Positions 1 to 6,376 of a stretch of 6,376 nucleotides of DNA are shown here, piece by piece. Under the pieces are notes generated by a model. That model did not search any database, was not told the origin of the DNA, and saw nothing but the letters and a program-made list of their open reading frames with translations. The number at the start of each line of letters is the position of its first letter. The stretch's first letter is position 1. Origin of the DNA: Thermoplasmata archaeon (GTDB taxonomy: Archaea > Thermoplasmatota > Thermoplasmata > Thermoplasmatales > Thermoplasmataceae); contig JAKBSB010000077.1 in assembly GCA_021845155.1 (NCBI GenBank), positions 1 through 6,376 of the forward strand, given 5' to 3'. A program made the translations under genes and the position numbers.

Positions 1-75
1 AAGGAAGGGGCTTGTCCTGTGAGGGACAGCGCAAAAGTTGATCAGGGGGCTTTAACAACAAGGAGAAAAACATGA
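1..75 (+). CDS. C-terminal end of an open frame entering from the left edge (unidentified)
   Basis: Reading from base 1, the frame stays open for 24 codons and ends at TGA 73-75. The visible residues are basic and polar (for example GACPVRDSAKVDQG, ending TTRRKT). No domain is recognisable in so short a piece. The stop overlaps the ATG of the next open frame (ATGA at 72-75). A run of five A's (66-70) sits at the junction, so one extra A would fuse this frame to the following one; the two could be pieces of one frameshifted gene. A tail of a TnpB/OrfB-type transposase is one guess, suggested only by composition and by the hairpin further down. The evidence for a real protein end is weak. Confidence 0.3.
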   Translation, partial: KEGACPVRDSAKVDQGALTTRRKT

Positions 76-446
76 AGGAAAAGCAGAAGTTAGTCGGGAG
101 AAATACATGCACACCTGAGTATGATCCACAAGTCCGTAAATCTGTGACTCTACCCCTAAAGAGGAGGGAAACTGCCTGTGATCAGAGTTTAAAAACCCCT
201 TCTAACAACCCCCATGCGGATCTACAGTCAGGCATGACTGGACGGGACCTGAAAGCTCCCGTCATAAACATGCGCAATGAACCATTAATAACCTGTGTGA
301 AATCAATAATTGAAAAAGGAGAAGAAAAGAAGATGGATACTGATGTAAAGAATGTAAAGCTGGTAAGATACAGGAATGTCATGCAGTTCGAGCCCCAATT
401 ACTCCCCACGCTAACGCATGGGGTCTCCCTGGGGGTGGTAATATGA
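72..446 (+). CDS. Doubtful 124-codon open frame, possibly the degraded 3' end of a gene
   Basis: The frame starts at ATG 72, has AAGGAG at 60-65 in front of it, and its TGA overlaps the gfcR start codon (ATGA 443-446). The predicted protein is basic, has no recognisable domain, membrane segment or motif, and has an irregular composition unlike the neighbouring housekeeping proteins. Bases 1-442 are therefore largely unexplained. Two readings are possible. It may be remnant sequence, for example the tail of an IS605/IS1341-type tnpB, whose right ends often carry CCCC/GGGG hairpins like the one at 393-434. Alternatively, only its last part is translated: an internal ATG at 333, preceded by AAGGAG (316-321), would give a 37-aa peptide coupled to gfcR. 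I favour 'not an intact conserved gene' but cannot exclude a lineage-specific one. Confidence 0.22.
393..434 (+). promoter_or_regulatory. Nested hairpin overlapping the gfcR ribosome-binding region
   Basis: Two copies of CCCCA (393-397 and 404-408) are followed by two copies of TGGGG (419-423 and 430-434), each pair 11 bases apart. The inner pair closes a hairpin that adds a GC/GC step (410-411 with 416-417) and a TAAC loop. The outer pair would close a second tier and bury the first half of the gfcR Shine-Dalgarno run GGGGGTGG (431-438), which ends 4 bases before ATG 443. The inner CCCCA could instead pair with the second TGGGG, so alternative folds exist. Pairing is seen in the sequence; a regulatory role is inference. 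The hairpin could also be a relic of a transposon right end. Confidence 0.4.
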
Positions 447-1039
447 AGAGCCTTGAAGAGTTGTACAAAAGGGCACTTGACCTGAAGAACAAGGGCATGG
501 CTGACAAGGAAATTTCAACAGAGCTTCACCTTTCAGTGAACACTGTCACATGGCTTTTGAGCAAAGATTTCCTGAAGGAATCAAAGGTCCAGGATGTAAA
601 GATAGGATGGAGAACTGCAGGAGTTTACGGAAGCAGGATCAGCAACCTCTCAGAGATAATCGCAGACATAATAGACGAAGAATCAAGAATTGGTGAGTTC
701 GAGGTTTCATCAATTCTGGGAATAACCATAAACGGCATCCCTTTCGCAACAATGGTATCGTACCTGATGGACAAGGAACTTGTTGTGTACAGGCCTCACC
801 CCAGCAGGAAAGAGGGACTGTTCAGCAGTAATTTTGCAAGCGTCAGGGGAAAGAACATAGTTGTCATAGATGATGTTGCAAGCACAGGGGAGACACTCAA
901 AAGGACCATCATGGATGTGAAGTCCGAAGGTGGAAATGTTGTTCTGGTTGTTGTCCTTGCGTCCAAGATACGTGGCGATGAGATCATGGGAGTGAGACTG
1001 AGATCAATAGTGAGAACCAGCCTCATAGGGAGCAGTTAG
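443..1039 (+). CDS. gfcR: GfcR/PyrE-like transcriptional regulator (HTH plus phosphoribosyltransferase domain)
   Basis: This 198-aa protein matches the archaeal GfcR group (orotate phosphoribosyltransferase-like). In haloarchaea GfcR is a DNA-binding regulator of central sugar metabolism rather than a pyrimidine enzyme. Residues ~5-45 form a helix-turn-helix ([20 protein letters not shown]). From ~60 on there is a type I PRTase fold with the PRPP-binding motif [13 protein letters not shown] at 140-152, where the acidic pair is D143-D144. [10 protein letters not shown] just before it is typical of the family. The length is normal. The start is well supported by GGGGGTGG at 431-438, 4 bases upstream. 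lysS begins 9 bases after its stop, so the two genes are probably cotranscribed. The effector and targets cannot be read from the sequence. A true PyrE enzyme is less likely because PyrE lacks the HTH. Confidence 0.75.
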
Positions 1040-1048
1040 GTTTAGTTT

Positions 1049-2563
1049 ATGCACTGGGCAGATTCGCTGGTAAAGGAGCTGGAAGGGAACCAGTTAGTAT
1101 CAACTGGAATATCACCTTCAGGACCAATTCATGTTGGAAACATGCGTGAGATACTCACAGGGGACATGATTTACAAAGCAGCATTAAAGAAGGGGTTGAA
1201 AGCGAGATTCATATACCTGTGTGACGACATTGATCCCCTGAGAAAAGTATATCCTTTCCTGGACAGCAGTTATTCATCCTATGTGGGATTCCCACTGAGC
1301 AGTATTCCTGCTCCAGATGGTGGACCTTCATATTCAGAGTATTTCTTGAAACCCTTTGTGGAAACCCTTTCAAAGATAGATGTTAACGTTGAGGTTCTCA
1401 GAACCACAGACCTTTACAGAAATGGAACATTTGAAAGATCGATAAGGATGGTGGTGGAGAAGCGTGACAGAATAAGAGATATACTTCAGGAGCTGTCTGG
1501 AAGAGAACTTGAGGAAAACTGGTTTCCTTATAATCCCAGATGCGGAAAATGCGGGAGAATAAACTCAACTGTTGTTGAATCTTATGATCTCCCCATGATT
1601 CACTATAAATGTTCCTGCGGAAATGAAGGTTCTGCCGATATAAGGAAAGATGACGGAAAAATGCCCTGGAGAATAGAATGGCCAGCCAAGTGGTTTGAAC
1701 TTGGTGTTACAATAGAACCATTCGGCAAGGATCACGGCGCATCTGGAGGTTCATACGACACCGGTAAGAGAATAGCGGAGGAGATCTTCGAAATAAGCGC
1801 ACCTGTTCCCCTGATATATGAGAGGATATTCCTGAAGGGTGTTGGAGTGATGCATTCCTCAACCGGCATCTCAATACCTGCATCAGACATGGTCAAATAC
1901 GCTCCACCGCAGATACTTCGTTTCATAATAGCTAGAAGCAACCCGGGAAGACATATAAATTTTGATCCTGGAGCAGGTCTCCTTAATCTGGTGGATGAAT
2001 TTGAGAAATACCAGAAAGCATACAACAGCCAGGAAGAGGTAAAGGACGAAAATTACAGGGAGGTGTATGAATATTCAAGGATTTCAGGCAAGGAGAGCGC
2101 CACAGGAATAAGCTTCCGTCATCTTGTAACGCTTGTTCAGATATACACCACAGATACAGATCTCCTGAGGGTCCTTAAACATACGGGATACACTGGTGAA
2201 AGCCTGGACGACCAGATGAAATGGCAGATTGAGATAGCAAGAAACTGGCTTTCAAAATATGCCCCGGATATTGTGAAATTCAGGGTTATGCCCATGGATT
2301 ATACGGTACACCTGAATGAGGTTGAGAAGTCAATACTGTCAGATTTTGTAGCCCAGGCGTCTAAGTTACAGTGGAATCCAGAGGAGATACATAATTCAGT
2401 TCATGAGATACTTAAGGCCAGGAATGTATCTCCCAAGGAAGGCTTTGGCGCTTTCTACAGGGTTATAATTGGGAAAGACCAGGGACCACGGCTTGGATAT
2501 TTTCTCTCAAATATGGAAAGGGACTTTGTAATATCAAGATTGAAAGCCAATATTTCAGCCTGA
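1049..2563 (+). CDS. lysS: Lysyl-tRNA synthetase, class I
   Basis: This cytoplasmic enzyme joins lysine to tRNA(Lys) using ATP. At 504 aa it has the usual length of archaeal class I LysRS. The N-terminal Rossmann domain begins with MHWAD and carries the HIGH motif as PSGPIHVGN (23-31, H28 and G30). A zinc-knuckle insertion has C165xxC168 and C188xC190. The conserved block WRIEWPAKW (207-215) is followed by EPFGKDH (223-229). The KMSKS loop is abnormal: the expected lysine-starting signature reads VMHSSTG (267-273), with Val for the first Lys and His for the first Ser. The rest, including the C-terminal helical anticodon-binding part, looks intact, so I read it as a working enzyme with a diverged loop. 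ATG 1049 fits the family N-terminus; only a weak TTAGG-type ribosome site precedes it, suggesting translation linked to gfcR upstream. The class II enzyme is excluded because its motifs are absent. Confidence 0.95.
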   Translation: MHWADSLVKELEGNQLVSTGISPSGPIHVGNMREILTGDMIYKAALKKGLKARFIYLCDDIDPLRKVYPFLDSSYSSYVGFPLSSIPAPDGGPSYSEYFLKPFVETLSKIDVNVEVLRTTDLYRNGTFERSIRMVVEKRDRIRDILQELSGRELEENWFPYNPRCGKCGRINSTVVESYDLPMIHYKCSCGNEGSADIRKDDGKMPWRIEWPAKWFELGVTIEPFGKDHGASGGSYDTGKRIAEEIFEISAPVPLIYERIFLKGVGVMHSSTGISIPASDMVKYAPPQILRFIIARSNPGRHINFDPGAGLLNLVDEFEKYQKAYNSQEEVKDENYREVYEYSRISGKESATGISFRHLVTLVQIYTTDTDLLRVLKHTGYTGESLDDQMKWQIEIARNWLSKYAPDIVKFRVMPMDYTVHLNEVEKSILSDFVAQASKLQWNPEEIHNSVHEILKARNVSPKEGFGAFYRVIIGKDQGPRLGYFLSNMERDFVISRLKANISA

Positions 2564-2566
2564 AAA

Positions 2567-2589
2567 TTTTACATTCTTTTAACATTTTT
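2567..2589 (+). terminator. T-rich terminator after lysS
   Basis: Just after the lysS stop the + strand carries TTTT (2567-2570), TTCTTTT (2574-2580) and ATTTTT (2584-2589), without a stem. Archaeal RNA polymerase typically ends transcription at such T-runs. It separates the gfcR-lysS unit from the next gene, which has its own TATA box. Confidence 0.5.
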
Positions 2590-2600
2590 CTAATTTCGAC

Positions 2601-2613
2601 AATTATATATTAA
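2601..2613 (+). promoter_or_regulatory. TATA-box promoter of the leaderless gene at 2632
   Basis: AATTATATATTAA lies with its core (TTATATAT, 2603-2610) centred about 25 bases before ATG 2632. With the usual archaeal distance from TATA to transcription start, the transcript would begin at or within a few bases of the ATG. No GGTG-type ribosome site is present between box and ATG, which agrees with a leaderless mRNA. Confidence 0.7.
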
Positions 2614-2631
2614 ATAGCGTGTTGTTCATTC

Positions 2632-3186
2632 ATGATAAAACACGGTTTTGTTGAAAGAGATATTGATCCATCTGAAGTGTACGATCTGGTCAAACAGTTG
2701 CTAGCCAAAGAGGATTTCAAGATAACATCTGATGATCAGAGCAATTCCATGTACGAAATACATGCCAAAAAATCCAGCAGGGAGAGAATTGTTCTCGGGA
2801 GGGTAAGGGATGTTGATGTTGTTATTGCAGGCGACAAAGGAAAATTCGAGGTACAGCTTCACGCAGGAATATGGGGCCGTGACATGGCTATCCCTGCAAT
2901 TGAGGGAATAGCTACCTTTGGAATGGCAACGGCAGCAGAGCTTCATTCAGGTCATGAGTTTGAGAAGAGGATGTGGGAACAGATAGTGAAGAAGATAGAC
3001 CCGACCCTGAAAATATGCGAATATGATGGCATGCTGTTCAAGACCCAGCAGGAACTGGACCAGCATATAAAAGCCCACCAGCAGCAGATGGCTGGAGCAG
3101 GATCCATGATGGGTATGGGGATGCTTGGAATGGGTATGATGGGCATGGGAATGATGGGATTTGGCGGACCAGGTCTCTTCATTTAA
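2632..3186 (+). CDS. Unrecognised protein with a C2H2-spaced finger (CDHH) and a Met/Gly-rich tail
   Basis: I do not recognise a named family for this 184-aa protein. Residues 1-125 form a mixed alpha/beta domain with no signal peptide or clear membrane helix; a short hydrophobic stretch (87-102) is too polar for a confident membrane span. Residues 129-149 match classical C2H2 finger spacing exactly: C129-x2-D132-x3-F136-x5-L142-x2-H145-x3-H149, with Asp in place of the second Cys. A Gln-rich bridge (QQQ at 150-152) leads to a tail (153-184) in which 10 of the 17 residues 159-175 are Met, the rest mostly Gly, ending FGGPGLFI. GroEL-type chaperonins have comparable GGM tails and copper-handling proteins have Met-rich runs, but neither function is shown. 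It is transcribed from its own TATA box as a leaderless mRNA, and metG follows 149 bases later. It is probably soluble and metal-binding; the role is unknown. Confidence 0.8.
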   Translation: MIKHGFVERDIDPSEVYDLVKQLLAKEDFKITSDDQSNSMYEIHAKKSSRERIVLGRVRDVDVVIAGDKGKFEVQLHAGIWGRDMAIPAIEGIATFGMATAAELHSGHEFEKRMWEQIVKKIDPTLKICEYDGMLFKTQQELDQHIKAHQQQMAGAGSMMGMGMLGMGMMGMGMMGFGGPGLFI

Positions 3187-3335
3187 TCCCTGTCTCTTTC
3201 TCATTTAGATTAAAAAAACTCTTCCTGGCAGGTCCATTAGAACAATGATTCGTAAAAAACCTAATTCTCAAAAATTATGAACAAGTAAACAATCACTCGA
3301 TCCGTTCCGGAGATTCTTCCGGTGGATGTGATAAT
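3187..3335 (+). promoter_or_regulatory. metG upstream region: pyrimidine-rich terminator, weak TATA-like element, tiny upstream frames
   Basis: Directly after the previous stop there is a pyrimidine-rich run (CTCTTTCTCATTT, 3194-3206) that may end transcription, then TTTAGATTAAAAAA (3204-3217), a loose TATA match that would start RNA near 3240. An 11-codon frame (MIRKKPNSQKL, 3245-3280) follows; its stop overlaps a 3-codon frame (ATG AAC AAG TAA, 3277-3288) in ATGA fashion. A hairpin at 3300-3327 comes next. If RNA starts near 3240, metG has a leader of about 95 bases, unlike the leaderless arrangement of the genes at 2632 and probably 5563. Whether metG has its own promoter or is read through from the gene at 2632 cannot be decided. 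Confidence 0.35.
3300..3327 (+). promoter_or_regulatory. metG: Hairpin covering the GGTG ribosome site of metG
   Basis: CCGGA (3307-3311) pairs with TCCGG (3318-3322) around a GATTCT loop, and ATCC (3300-3303) pairs with GGAT (3324-3327) across a 3x1 internal loop. This gives a 9-bp imperfect stem. Its 3' arm contains GGTGGA (3321-3326), the only ribosome-site-like sequence before the inferred metG start at 3336. Folding would hide it. The pairing is directly visible; control of metG translation is inference. Confidence 0.45.
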
Positions 3336-5456
3336 ATCAAAATAGTTGTAAATTCGGCTCTGCCATATGCAAACGGCTCTCTTCACCTGGGTCACATATC
3401 TGGTGCATACCTGTCTGCAGATATCTTCACCAGGTTCAACAGGATGATAGGAAACGAGGTACTTTTCATTTCAGGCAGTGATGAATACGGAACGCCCATA
3501 ACCATCTCTGCAGAAAAACAGAACACCACTCCTGAAAAGATTGCCGAGAAATTCCACAATGAATTTATACACACTTTCAGGTCAATGGACATAGATTTCA
3601 ATCTCTTCACGAGGACATCATACAGGGAACACTGGAAGATGGTCCAGGAGATATTTCTCGACCTTCTTGATAAAGGCTTCCTTCATGAGAAAGCCATGAT
3701 CTCACCATATTGCGCAAAGTGTGGCAGATTCATGCCAGACAGATACATTGAGGGCACATGCCCCCATTGCGGATTCAAGCAGGCCAGGGGCGATCAGTGT
3801 GATGAATGCGGAAGAACGCTTGATCCACAGGAACTCATAGAACCCAGATGCGTCCTGTGCGATGAAACCCCGGAATTCAGAGAAACTTCACATTTTTTCC
3901 TGAGACTTGATCTGTTTCAGGAAAAGCTCATATCATGGCTTGAGACAAAGGATTACTGGAGAACAAACGTTCTTGCATTTACAAGGAATTTCATATCTTC
4001 CGGATTGAGAGAAAGACCCATTACCAGGGATCTGGACTGGGGGGTTCCGATCCCACTTGAAGGTTATGAACACAAGAGGATATATGTCTGGTTCGAAGCG
4101 CTCATAGGCTACCTTTCAGGACCAAAAGTATACTCTGATAAAATCGGAAAACCCGACTACTGGAAAAGTTTCTATTATGACCGGGAGGTAAAGACATACT
4201 ATTTCCTCGGCAAGGACAATATTCCTTTCCATACAGTGATATGGCCCGCTTTGCTGATGGGCATGGGCGATATAAACCTGCCATACGATGTCCCTGCAAA
4301 CGAATACCTGAGGTTCAAGGGTGAGCAGTTCTCCAAGAGCAGGGGAATTGGACTTACAGTGGATGAAGCTCTCAAGCTTGTTCCAAAGGACTATCTCAGG
4401 TTCTACATGTCCATGAACCTCCCTGAAACTGGAGACTCTGATTTCACCCTCTCAGACCTTCAGGATAAGGTGAACAGCGAACTCATAGACAAATTCGGGA
4501 ACTTCATACATCGGGTGGTCAGCTTCATTCACAAGAATGGGTTGAACCCATCGGAAGGCATACTTGATGAGAGCGATCTGATGGCCCTGGATGAGGCTGA
4601 AAGAAGTTTTGAGAGGTATTCATCATCCATATCAAAGGTGCAGATTAAGAGGGCATTCCAGGAGTGGCTGGAGCTTGTGAAGTATTCCAATGTATATTTC
4701 AATGATGCCGCTCCATGGAAGATCATAAAGACAGACAGGGGAAAATGTGCCACAAAACTTTACACTGCTCTCAGGCTGAGCGAGTACCTGGCGTATATGC
4801 TCTATCCATACTGCCCGTCCTCAGCAAGGAGTGTGATGGGTATCATCAACCCTTCAGGTTTCGTTGAATTCAGGTCAGAGAACCTGAAGGCCAGCAACCA
4901 CTCGTATTCCCCTATCTTATCAGAAGTCCCATTCCAGAAGATCGATCTGGAGGTTAAAAATGGGAACAGCCTTGATCTCAGGGTGGCACTCATTGAGGAT
5001 GCTCGCATTCACCAGGATTCCGATCGCCTGCTTGTTCTTGGATTGTCTCTGGGGAATGAGAAGAGGCAGATTGTTGCAGGACTCAGGAAATACTACGACG
5101 TAAGTGAACTGATGGGGAAGAAGATCGTGCTGGTTGCAAACATGAAGAGAGCGAAAATAAGGGGAGAAGAGTCCAATGGTATGCTCCTTGCTGCCGATGA
5201 TGGAATAACCATATCTTTACTGAAGCCTCCTGAAGACAGCCAACCTGGAGATGAGGTGAATCTGGGGGAACTTCCATACAATTCCTCAGGGACAATTACA
5301 GTTGATGACCTCAGGGAATTCAATTTAAGGGTTATTGAGAATGATGGCAAAAAATATGTTTCGGCGGTTGTTTCTGGGAAAAACCTCATCATGAACTTAC
5401 AGGGAAAAAATGTTGAAATATACTCAGAAGTTGCAGTTAATGCCACTGTGAGATGA
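3336..5456 (+). CDS. metG: Methionyl-tRNA synthetase with fused EMAPII-like C-terminal module; start codon non-standard (ATC) or frameshifted
   Basis: The enzyme charges tRNA(Met), initiator and elongator, in the cytoplasm. The first in-frame ATG (3444) cannot be the true start: the same frame upstream encodes KIVVNSALPYANG and the HIGH motif HLGH (3384-3395), essential for ATP binding. The frame is open back to TGA 3246-3248 but has no ATG, GTG or TTG; ATC 3336 is the best-placed start (GGTG 3321-3324), giving 706 aa. Numbered from there: HLGH 17-20; four zinc knuckles C126/C129, C142/C145, C155/C158, C172/C175 of the archaeal type; QFSKS at 331-335 as the KMSKS loop (first Lys is Gln, second kept); anticodon-binding helices around W461; an EMAPII/Trbp-like OB domain at ~546-630 (LDLRVALIEDARIH, ANMKRAKIRG, SNGMLLAA); and a last part (631-706) resembling the EMAPII C-terminal subdomain (PPEDSQPGDEV). 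Deleting T3329 would instead give ATG 3326 in frame. Confidence 0.95.
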   Translation: MKIVVNSALPYANGSLHLGHISGAYLSADIFTRFNRMIGNEVLFISGSDEYGTPITISAEKQNTTPEKIAEKFHNEFIHTFRSMDIDFNLFTRTSYREHWKMVQEIFLDLLDKGFLHEKAMISPYCAKCGRFMPDRYIEGTCPHCGFKQARGDQCDECGRTLDPQELIEPRCVLCDETPEFRETSHFFLRLDLFQEKLISWLETKDYWRTNVLAFTRNFISSGLRERPITRDLDWGVPIPLEGYEHKRIYVWFEALIGYLSGPKVYSDKIGKPDYWKSFYYDREVKTYYFLGKDNIPFHTVIWPALLMGMGDINLPYDVPANEYLRFKGEQFSKSRGIGLTVDEALKLVPKDYLRFYMSMNLPETGDSDFTLSDLQDKVNSELIDKFGNFIHRVVSFIHKNGLNPSEGILDESDLMALDEAERSFERYSSSISKVQIKRAFQEWLELVKYSNVYFNDAAPWKIIKTDRGKCATKLYTALRLSEYLAYMLYPYCPSSARSVMGIINPSGFVEFRSENLKASNHSYSPILSEVPFQKIDLEVKNGNSLDLRVALIEDARIHQDSDRLLVLGLSLGNEKRQIVAGLRKYYDVSELMGKKIVLVANMKRAKIRGEESNGMLLAADDGITISLLKPPEDSQPGDEVNLGELPYNSSGTITVDDLREFNLRVIENDGKKYVSAVVSGKNLIMNLQGKNVEIYSEVAVNATVR

Positions 5457-5466
5457 AAACGCCCAG

Positions 5467-5488
5467 CCGGAATCACCCTGTGTTCCGG
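5467..5488 (+). terminator. Hairpin downstream of metG
   Basis: CCGGAA (5467-5472) pairs with TTCCGG (5483-5488), and inside it CAC (5474-5476) pairs with GTG (5480-5482) around a CCT loop, with one bulged T (5473). It lies 11 bases after the metG stop. No long T-run follows directly, so it may protect the mRNA end or help termination together with the T-rich stretch around 5519-5535. Its core CCGGA/TCCGG is the same as that of the hairpin before metG. Confidence 0.45.
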
Positions 5489-5515
5489 TCGAAGATAATT
5501 CAAAATTTCAATAAA

Positions 5516-5540
5516 AAATTTATTATAGTTCTTTTAATTA
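5516..5540 (+). promoter_or_regulatory. rpoK promoter region (two TATA-like elements)
   Basis: TTTTAATTA (5532-5540) is centred about 26 bases before ATG 5563 and would give a leaderless rpoK mRNA. A second element, AATTTATTATA (5516-5526 or so), lies further up and would give a leader of about 16 bases. No ribosome-binding sequence precedes the ATG, which favours the first choice. Confidence 0.5.
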
Positions 5541-5562
5541 CCTATAGATTCCATTGATTTCT

Positions 5563-5730
5563 ATGAATTATACCAAGTTTGAAAAAGCAAGGATTATCGG
5601 CGCAAGGGCATTGCAGGTCTCCATGGGAGCACCTGTCATAATAGATGTGCCGGCTACAATGTTCGACCCGGTCGATATAGCAATCCTTGAGTTCAACAAC
5701 GATCTCATTCCAATTACCATTAAGAGATAA
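5563..5730 (+). CDS. rpoK: DNA-directed RNA polymerase subunit K (Rpo6/Rpb6 homologue)
   Basis: This 55-aa gene encodes the archaeal counterpart of eukaryotic Rpb6 and bacterial omega, a small subunit that helps assemble and hold the largest RNA polymerase subunit. Almost the whole protein is the family signature: [16 protein letters not shown] (3-18), then [11 protein letters not shown] (20-30), [10 protein letters not shown] (35-44) and the C-terminal IPITIKR (49-55). The length is normal for archaeal subunit K, which lacks the acidic N-terminal tail of eukaryotic Rpb6. The start [10 protein letters not shown] fits the family, and ATG 5563 is the only reasonable choice. There is no ribosome site, so the mRNA is probably leaderless. 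It stands alone between metG and the 16S rRNA gene, with its own promoter and a T6 terminator. Confidence 0.95.
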
Positions 5731-5740
5731 TCCAACCTTT

Positions 5741-5776
5741 CCCATTTTTTATATCCATCCAGAGTGATGTGTTATT
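5741..5776 (+). terminator. T-rich terminator after rpoK
   Basis: A run of six T's (5745-5750) begins 15 bases after the rpoK stop, and a five-T run at 5774-5778 and another at 5786-5790 follow. No stem precedes them. This fits an archaeal intrinsic terminator and separates rpoK from rRNA transcription. Confidence 0.5.
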
Positions 5777-5842
5777 TTTAAGTGATTTTTCATAAAATAA
5801 ATATCGCACTCCCAATGTTTTACAGCGTGCAAAACTGATGGG

Positions 5843-5881
5843 TTTTAATATACGCTGGAAAATTCTCGAAACAGTTATATA
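5843..5881 (+). promoter_or_regulatory. Promoter(s) of the 16S rRNA gene, two TATA boxes
   Basis: TTTTAATATA (5843-5852) would start RNA near 5875. TTATATA (5875-5881), directly preceded by the purine-rich CGAAACAG (5867-5874) that resembles a BRE, would start RNA near 5904. Both lie 30 bases apart and point to 16S. Tandem promoters are common before rRNA genes; which one is used cannot be told. The stretch 5779-5842 upstream is AT-rich and shows nothing else I can name. Confidence 0.6.
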
Positions 5882-5903
5882 GAGATTAATCATAAAGGAG
5901 ACT

Positions 5904-6099
5904 ACGCACATATCTAGGGAAAAACCTAGTATTAGCCAACCATAAGGCGAGTGGGGGATCAGTGCCTGAGGCATGAGATGAACCTTAACTGTTCCAAGGT
6001 TGGGAAAGATGGGGATATGAGTGAAAGATCTCATTTCTGACGTGTGAAATGGTGCAAACTGTGGCTCGCCAATTTTCAAATTTATTCGACAGGAATTAA
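5904..6099 (+). ncRNA. Structured 5' leader of the 16S rRNA precursor
   Basis: No coding frame makes sense here, but pairing is dense. CTAGG/CCTAG (5914-5918 with 5925-5929) forms a hairpin with a GAAAAA loop. GGCGAG (5946-5951) pairs with CTCGCC (6065-6070), enclosing three smaller hairpins: TGCC/GGCA (5963-5966, 5970-5973; extended by ATC/GAT), AACCTT/AAGGTT (5981-5986, 5996-6001) and ATGAG/CTCAT (6017-6021, 6030-6034). CCAACC (5936-5941) could alternatively pair with GGTTGG (5998-6003). Archaeal pre-16S RNA is normally cut at a stem formed by both flanks of the gene; the downstream flank is outside the window, so that stem cannot be tested here. A separate small RNA within 5946-6070 is possible. 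Confidence 0.5.
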
Positions 6100-6376
6100 C
6101 TCCGGTTGATCCTGCCGGCGGCCACTGCTATCAGGTTCCGACTAAGCCATGCAAGTTAAGGGGTCGTAAGACACCAGCGAACCGCTCAGTAACACGCGGA
6201 TAATCTAACCCCAAGCGGGGTATAGCCTCGGGAAACTGAGGGTAATTCCCCATAGCCATTATATGCTGGAATGCTTTGATGGTGAAAGCTTCGGCGCTTG
6301 AGGATGAGTCTGCGGCCTATCAGGTAGTATGTGGTGTAAAGGACCACATAGCCGAGGACGGGTACGGGCCTTGAAA
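6100..6376 (+). rRNA. rrs: 16S ribosomal RNA, 5' end (truncated by the window edge)
   Basis: The mature RNA begins at about 6100 with CTCCGGTTGATCCTGCCGG, the near-universal archaeal 16S start. GACTAAGCCATGCAAGT, CTCAGTAACACGCGG, TCTGCGGCCTATCAGGTAG and GACGGGTACGGGCC follow in the order expected for helices 1 to about 12. Only the first 277 of roughly 1,470 bases are present. The sequence CGGCGGCCACTGCTATC after the start is like Thermoplasma 16S. The exact 5' end could differ by one or two bases. The gene carries its own promoter; in Thermoplasma relatives 16S, 23S and 5S are unlinked, but the window stops too early to test that here. Confidence 0.97.

Follow-up and report, generated by a model that had tools for sequence, protein, structure and literature searches.

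In this uncultured archaeon and in some of its relatives, the methionyl-tRNA synthetase gene (metG) seems to be started by a weak stand-in codon, such as AUC, AUA or CUG, that sits behind an unusually strong Shine-Dalgarno (SD) sequence. It lies in a window of 6,376 nt, this being the whole stretch of DNA analysed (Thermoplasmata archaeon, assembly GCA_021845155.1, contig JAKBSB010000077.1, positions 1-6,376, forward strand). Our favoured reading, to which we give a probability of about 0.78, is that initiation is anchored by the SD at the ATC at 3336 and that recognition of this codon acts as the gate on synthesis of the enzyme (MetRS), much as it does for infC in bacteria.

The product is recognised as a methionyl-tRNA synthetase by curated NCBIfam cut-offs, scoring 668.6 bits against NF001100 (cut-off 587) and 509 bits against TIGR00398 (cut-off 336), with the HIGH motif in its N-terminal part. 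It matches the MetRS structure 1rqg over residues 2-522. The other features of the locus are listed in the table. The 184-residue open reading frame ahead of metG gave no match in an NCBIfam profile search of the window; in several relatives lysS directly precedes metG. Upstream of lysS, at 443-1039, is a gene resembling PRPP-type regulators, which matches NF002620 (orotate phosphoribosyltransferase-like) and, more weakly, GfcR. We also note that MetRS of Thermoplasma (L016, L018) has only about 540 residues and is without the C-terminal tRNA-binding domain; in that genus the domain finds its match in a short frame of its own at a distant locus (for example G023:C1:523302-523637).

The metG frame is open from position 3249 and contains no ATG, GTG or TTG ahead of the HIGH motif. 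This had been claimed in an earlier reading of the letters without database searches (the sequence-only reading), and the letters bear it out, as they do the position of the first in-frame ATG; a start there would leave the HIGH motif out of the protein. The same reading proposed initiation at the ATC, arguing that it fits the usual N-terminal length, and pointed to a GGTG at 3321-3324 that ends 11 bases earlier. Both elements are where it put them. Residue 2 of the product read from the ATC aligns to residue 3 of 1rqg, so that the ATC is the expected start of the protein to within one residue. As for the SD, GGTG was correctly placed but a better register, GGATGTGAT, was missed; its GTG core ends at 3330, with 5 bases between core and ATC. 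The 18 nt before the ATC are predicted to pair with a generic anti-SD at -8.8 kcal/mol.

Two close relatives could be compared at the DNA level. One is another strain, G000, 99.5% identical to the window (4,553 bp aligned, 23 of them mismatched), which agrees with it letter for letter across 150 bases around the metG start. The other is a sister species (G001, a Thermoplasmata MAG, record JAJYYD010000047.1; MetRS 77% identical to that of the window), in which ATG, GTG and TTG are likewise missing ahead of the conserved strand: its homologous codon is ATA, seven bases after GGAGGTG, and its sole in-frame GTG is the fourth codon, which is within that strand. The distance from the end of a conserved promoter-like block to the start is 47 nt in the window and 45 nt in G001, counted on the alignment, and a difference of 2 nt implies that the upstream frame is not maintained. 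Among database proteins of the P0003-P0006 group, those at 86% and 85% identity start at an internal Met (670 aa) and those at 77% and 76% start at the fourth codon. We read these four truncated starts, from the proteins themselves, as probable cases of gene callers missing a start codon that is not on their list. Taken with near-cognate codons at or beside the same position in four further genera, the identical site in G000 and the ATA of G001 support the proposal of ATC initiation, and the start site at 3336 is well supported by comparison.

Table. Features of the metG locus in the window, with the cobT-like gene of the second strain
Feature	Position	Strand	Remarks
lysS	1049-2563		upstream of metG
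ORF, 184 aa	2632-3186		between lysS and metG; Met/Gly-rich tail GMGMLGMGMMGMGMMGFGG
Promoter-like block AATTCTCAAAAATTATGAACAAGTAA	3263..3288	+	conserved in the alignment with G001
Predicted leader hairpin	3292..3332	+	SD paired, start codon free
TCG, codon -13	3297..3299	+	Met here in P0002, the predicted protein of a near-identical strain
Shine-Dalgarno GGATGTGAT	3324..3332	+	differs from GGAGGTGAT by one letter
ATG-TGA, out of frame	3326..3331	+	within the SD; missing from G001
Proposed start codon ATC	3336..3338	+	homologous codon ATA in G001, ATC/ATA in five Thermoplasma, CTG in four others, TTG/ATG elsewhere
metG (methionyl-tRNA synthetase)	3336..5456	+	706 codons from the ATC; NCBIfam matches, alignment with relatives
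HIGH motif (HLGH)	3384..3395	+	read in the metG translation
First in-frame ATG	3444..3446	+	inside the protein, past the HIGH motif, 36 codons after the ATC
16S rRNA gene	from 6099		start only
cobT-like gene	L183 (G000:C9), locus ~15642-16697, frame from reverse position 3304	-	NF003372

For the family as a whole, 77 genomes were surveyed, and the N-terminus of metG could be read in 65, with all 19 genera represented; the 12 unreadable genomes and a duplicate locus of G004 were left out. The sample includes T. volcanium (G023; P0077) and other Thermoplasma (G005, G084; P0085, P0106), Ferroplasma acidiphilum (G009; P0058) and Picrophilus (G019; P0082). The start codon is ATG in 41 genomes, TTG in 10, GTG in one and non-standard (ATC, ATA, CTG or ACG) in 13, these last falling in five of the 19 genera, Thermoplasma among them. 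ATC or ATA is found in the window's genus (two genomes) and in Thermoplasma (five), and CTG in G006 and in three of the four genomes of genus g15. In genus g10, two of three genomes have ATC and ACG, the ATC of G010 being read by eye at position -1 (position 0 being the codon homologous to the ATC of the window), and the third, G080, has TTG at that same position. An in-frame stop directly precedes the CTG in the three g15 genomes (G015, G068, G069), beside which their congener G070 starts with ATG.

In eight of the 13 non-standard genomes, G000 and G001 among them, the frame contains no ATG, GTG or TTG up to and including this position. Three of the eight have one further on, inside the conserved strand: TTG at +2 in G068, GTG at +3 in G001 and GTG at +4 in G010. 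We class metG as a candidate near-cognate start gene on the finding that the window and these eight genomes all lack an in-frame standard start before the conserved protein. All 13 non-standard codons are one change away from ATG, and all stand behind an SD of -8.5 kcal/mol or better. Position 0 itself is ATC, ATA or CTG in 11 of them, the near-cognate codon being at -1 in the two g10 genomes. Where a standard start is present at -1 to -3 (37 genomes), position 0 encodes Glu, Asn, Gln, Ser, Lys and others; it is near-cognate once (AGG) and never an Ile or Leu codon. On a quick MetRS tree with several weak forks (64 of the 65 rows, G003 being too short), the start changes between standard and non-standard at least five times. 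The comparison supports a weak metG start that recurs across genera of the family.

The strength of the SD was taken as the energy predicted for a generic anti-SD pairing with the 18 nt that precede the start codon, strong meaning -8.5 kcal/mol or better. The median for metG is -12.0 kcal/mol at the 13 non-standard starts, -9.7 at the 11 TTG or GTG starts and -3.1 at the 41 ATG starts; 23 metG in the whole family have a strong SD, two of them with ATG. As controls, lysS, leuS, valS, alaS, eno and hisS were read in 30 genomes, of which 24 have a non-ATG metG, four an ATG metG and two a metG that was unread. Copies with no N-terminal match (lysS 1, leuS 3, alaS 2, eno 1) were dropped. A standard start is present in all 169 readable copies; here starts as far as 2-9 residues inside the query protein were accepted, a laxer anchor than for metG. 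That the lack of a standard start goes beyond chance is borne out both by these controls and by the sister species. In the same genomes the SD is strong at 21 of 28 metG but at 12 of 169 control copies. Not one of the 21 metG starts behind a strong SD is ATG, and 13 are non-standard, compared with six ATG among the 12 controls (Fisher p 0.0005 for non-standard starts, uncorrected for relatedness and in genomes picked for a non-ATG metG). The comparison supports a coupling of the non-standard start with a strong SD, and we read it as suggesting an arrangement peculiar to metG, in which strong anchoring is combined with weak recognition.

A wider set comprised 80 named metG loci drawn from many phyla. 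One, L075, was dropped; of the 79 that could be read, 77 have a standard start, the two exceptions being G001 and a Nanoarchaeota MAG. The latter (L086, QMVD01000042.1) has no ATG, GTG or TTG before the conserved block, which follows closely on an AGGTGA; since there is a TTG out of frame, the cause may be an indel. The gene for aIF1 (SUI1) was found in 25 of the 30 control genomes, and the starts that could be read, at seven of the 25 loci, are all ATG.

All five Thermoplasma metG have an in-frame GTG at -3, within the SD itself (GAGGTG or AAGGTG), and the database MetRS of three of these genomes start there. The SD core lies 6 nt before the ATC or ATA, and no SD core lies ahead of the GTG; in Thermoplasma genes with a shared ATG and an SD core, the spacing is 5-6 nt in 23 of 33. 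An in-frame GTG of the SD at -3, here before a TTG at the start position of relatives, is also seen in lysS (L204, L208, L211, L212) and hisS (L386, L388, L393, L394), each in four of five Thermoplasma genomes; database starts placed at such GTGs may be three codons too early.

Near-cognate starts as a general habit were considered for Thermoplasma and rejected. Among 158 ortholog pairs none lacks a standard start in both species, and in three pairs it is absent from just one of the two; metG, with its GTG at -3, does not figure here among the genes without a standard start. A further 45 of the 203 pairs had been excluded, either because the frame lay mostly under a longer one or because it had no conserved block. 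A looser criterion flagged 39 pairs in both species and 27 in one, and it was tightened because many of the flags proved by eye to be antisense frames or blocks starting just upstream of a Met. A near-cognate codon at SD spacing occurs in seven Thermoplasma pairs: metG, four with an adjacent standard start, and two others. At L410 (+7744) the codon is ACG, and its conservation is explicable by an overlapping upstream frame. At L427 (-18198) an ACG at SD spacing stands two codons after a TTG; this is a ribosomal-protein-like gene (also L446, plus strand, 13222), with the TTG directly after GGTGA and an SD spacing of 7 for the ACG. In the window's own species, a cobT-like gene of G000, matching NCBIfam NF003372, is a second near-cognate candidate. 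It has no ATG, GTG or TTG before its conserved part, and ATC ATC follows GGCGGTGTT; its N-terminus is poorly conserved. The non-standard start may therefore not be specific to metG. Another apparent cobT exception, in G007, is a short broken frame.

Transcription of metG presumably begins near 3300, judging from the usual distance to a TATA box, and the leader is predicted to fold into a hairpin. In the window its energy is -16.4 kcal/mol (z -2.3, with 6 of 200 shuffles as good) and in G001 -13.1 kcal/mol (z -2.4, 5 of 200). Both folds have a continuous 3' arm in which the SD is paired, and both leave the start codon free. The predicted unpaired fraction of the SD region is 0.12 in the window and 0.06 in G001, the two lowest values among the 65 genomes, the next being 0.21; in a sample of genes from G000, values of 0.12 or less are found at none of 28 strong-SD genes and at three of 157 genes overall. 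A shorter stretch of the window folds at only z -1.1 to -1.5, and the consensus fold of window and G001 retains only five outer pairs, two species being too few for covariation. When all 65 genomes were folded, an SD-burying leader hairpin was not seen in other genera of the family, and an Rfam search of 3180-3460 gave no match with E up to 1. A leader hairpin that buries the SD is thus a prediction for the window's genus.

In the favoured reading, the strong SD would hold the small ribosomal subunit at the near-cognate ATC, where the initiator tRNA, mismatched at the third base, would probably supply methionine as the first residue of the protein. The slow step would be recognition of the start codon and not ribosome binding, so that MetRS output would be held down and would respond to the stringency of aIF1 and to the supply of Met-tRNAi. 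This supply, itself made by MetRS, would feed into metG initiation, and in the window's genus the hairpin over the SD would act as a second brake. The tRNA used, the low output, and regulation and its sign are the parts that we infer. Feedback through Met-tRNAi alone would have the wrong sign, since a shortage should lower metG further. The right sign would be obtained if elongator tRNAs (Ile, Leu, Thr) started the protein when Met-tRNAi is scarce, each non-standard codon seen being cognate to an elongator tRNA, whereas Met-tRNAi would read it poorly. metG would then be a start-codon sensor of initiator Met-tRNA supply and part of a methionine-independent rescue loop, with the hairpin as a second gate. 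We think this elaboration improbable; if it were true, the cell could make MetRS without initiator methionine, and this would be the first start-codon-based autoregulation in archaea, as far as a search of the open-access literature shows. Elongator tRNAs are reported to start proteins in E. coli once three of its initiator tRNA genes are deleted (PMC7949028).

The same site could also be used with no regulation at all, a strong SD simply tolerating a weak start. This is a tentative alternative that we take seriously: start codon and SD strength do covary in the family, ATG occurs beside CTG within one genus (G070), the feedback on metG is argued by analogy, and regulation through weak starts in E. 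coli and Streptomyces is reported to be shown for few genes only (PMC5472188). Against neutrality, other genes of G000 often combine a strong SD with ATG (21 of the 28 starts with such an SD, though starts were chosen with a bonus for a strong SD), the weak metG start recurs in five genera with at least five changes on the quick tree, and the window's genus adds a hairpin predicted to bury the SD.

The remaining alternatives move the start or remove the anomaly. Initiation might truly be at codon -13, by TTG or another start in some strains and perhaps on a nearly leaderless transcript, the TCG of the window being a lost or weakened form of it. P0002, otherwise nearly identical, carries Met at this codon, so that its strain may have a standard start at -13, and a TATA-like stretch lies upstream at about the right distance. 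This is nevertheless unlikely, given that the codon is TCG in the window and in G000, the two strains seen at the DNA level, and P0002 is known from its protein alone, that gene callers accept any available start, that no SD-like sequence precedes the codon, and that its frame is not conserved in the leader of G001, which has another length. The third codon, AUA 3342, is ATA in both the window and G001 and might replace the ATC. It is within the conserved strand, however, and 6 bases further from the SD, at odds with the spacing of 5-6 nt that is usual in Thermoplasma, and we regard it as very unlikely. It is scarcely credible that ribosomes start at AUG 3326, the out-of-frame AUG-UGA, and then reach the metG frame by a +1 shift or reinitiate at the ATC: the AUG-UGA is rightly placed in the window and in G000, but G001 has no AUG there, and the AUG is inside the SD and hence has none of its own. 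Least probable, to the point of being negligible, is an error of assembly or sequencing that masks a normal ATG by one extra base. Deleting the T at 3329 does yield an in-frame ATG, and the sequence-only reading offered an inserted base, real or artefactual, as its other explanation, to be settled by alignment with close relatives. That explanation fell away on comparison: G000 has the same letters at 3329, and an in-frame ATG at the site is absent from both G000 and G001, as it is from two further database relatives and four other genera. The ATG obtained by the deletion would not be an ancestral start, since G001 has no ATG at the site.

Non-AUG starts are familiar in synthetase genes of yeast, where GRS1 and ALA1 use UUG and ACG to make an extra mitochondrial isoform. 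There the weak start adds an isoform, whereas that of metG appears to be the sole start. In E. coli, thrS is autoregulated at the level of translation through a leader structure near the SD. metG resembles it in being a synthetase gene whose leader may fold close to the SD, but its hairpin is a prediction, made for two species, and that of the window shows no loop like a CAU anticodon. The gene infC (ATT in E. coli, ATC in Streptomyces) is described as autoregulated by IF3, with a start that is misannotated in many genomes (PMC5472188). Like metG it belongs to the translation apparatus and has a near-cognate start, and what it encodes takes part in initiation. Autoregulation of the infC type, raised by the sequence-only reading, is a reasonable analogy for metG. 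The two differ in that infC is bacterial and metG archaeal, and in that IF3 itself discriminates against the codon, in a loop that has been shown, whereas MetRS makes Met-tRNA and inspects no codons, so that its link to the start would be indirect. According to the same source, sigR of Streptomyces has a GTC start and is repressed by IF3 (PMC5472188), so that less of its product is made because of a non-standard start, as would be the case for metG; sigR is not a translation enzyme, and GTC is not a single change from ATG. In archaea (Sulfolobus, Pyrococcus), aIF1 acts against non-AUG initiation complexes and would be the factor acting on a start of the metG type; the available part of that work is in vitro, with model mRNAs, and names no natural near-cognate gene (PMC6237735). 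According to a 2021 review, non-canonical events in archaea are shown only in elongation and termination (PMC8211752).

By analogy, we place metG with the near-cognate starts of translation genes, a known phenomenon. A search of the open-access literature found no report of near-cognate starts in archaea or of one in metG. Several database MetRS of the family would be annotated with the wrong N-terminus; examples are P0003 to P0006, whose first residue is either an internal Met or that of the fourth codon. The metG genes of this family form a natural series for archaeal start-codon discrimination, with ATG, TTG, GTG, CTG, ATC, ATA and ACG at or beside one position. As MetRS makes the Met-tRNA that starts proteins, a weak metG start would couple synthesis of the enzyme to initiation, and a weak start behind a strong SD may be a built-in brake on MetRS synthesis.
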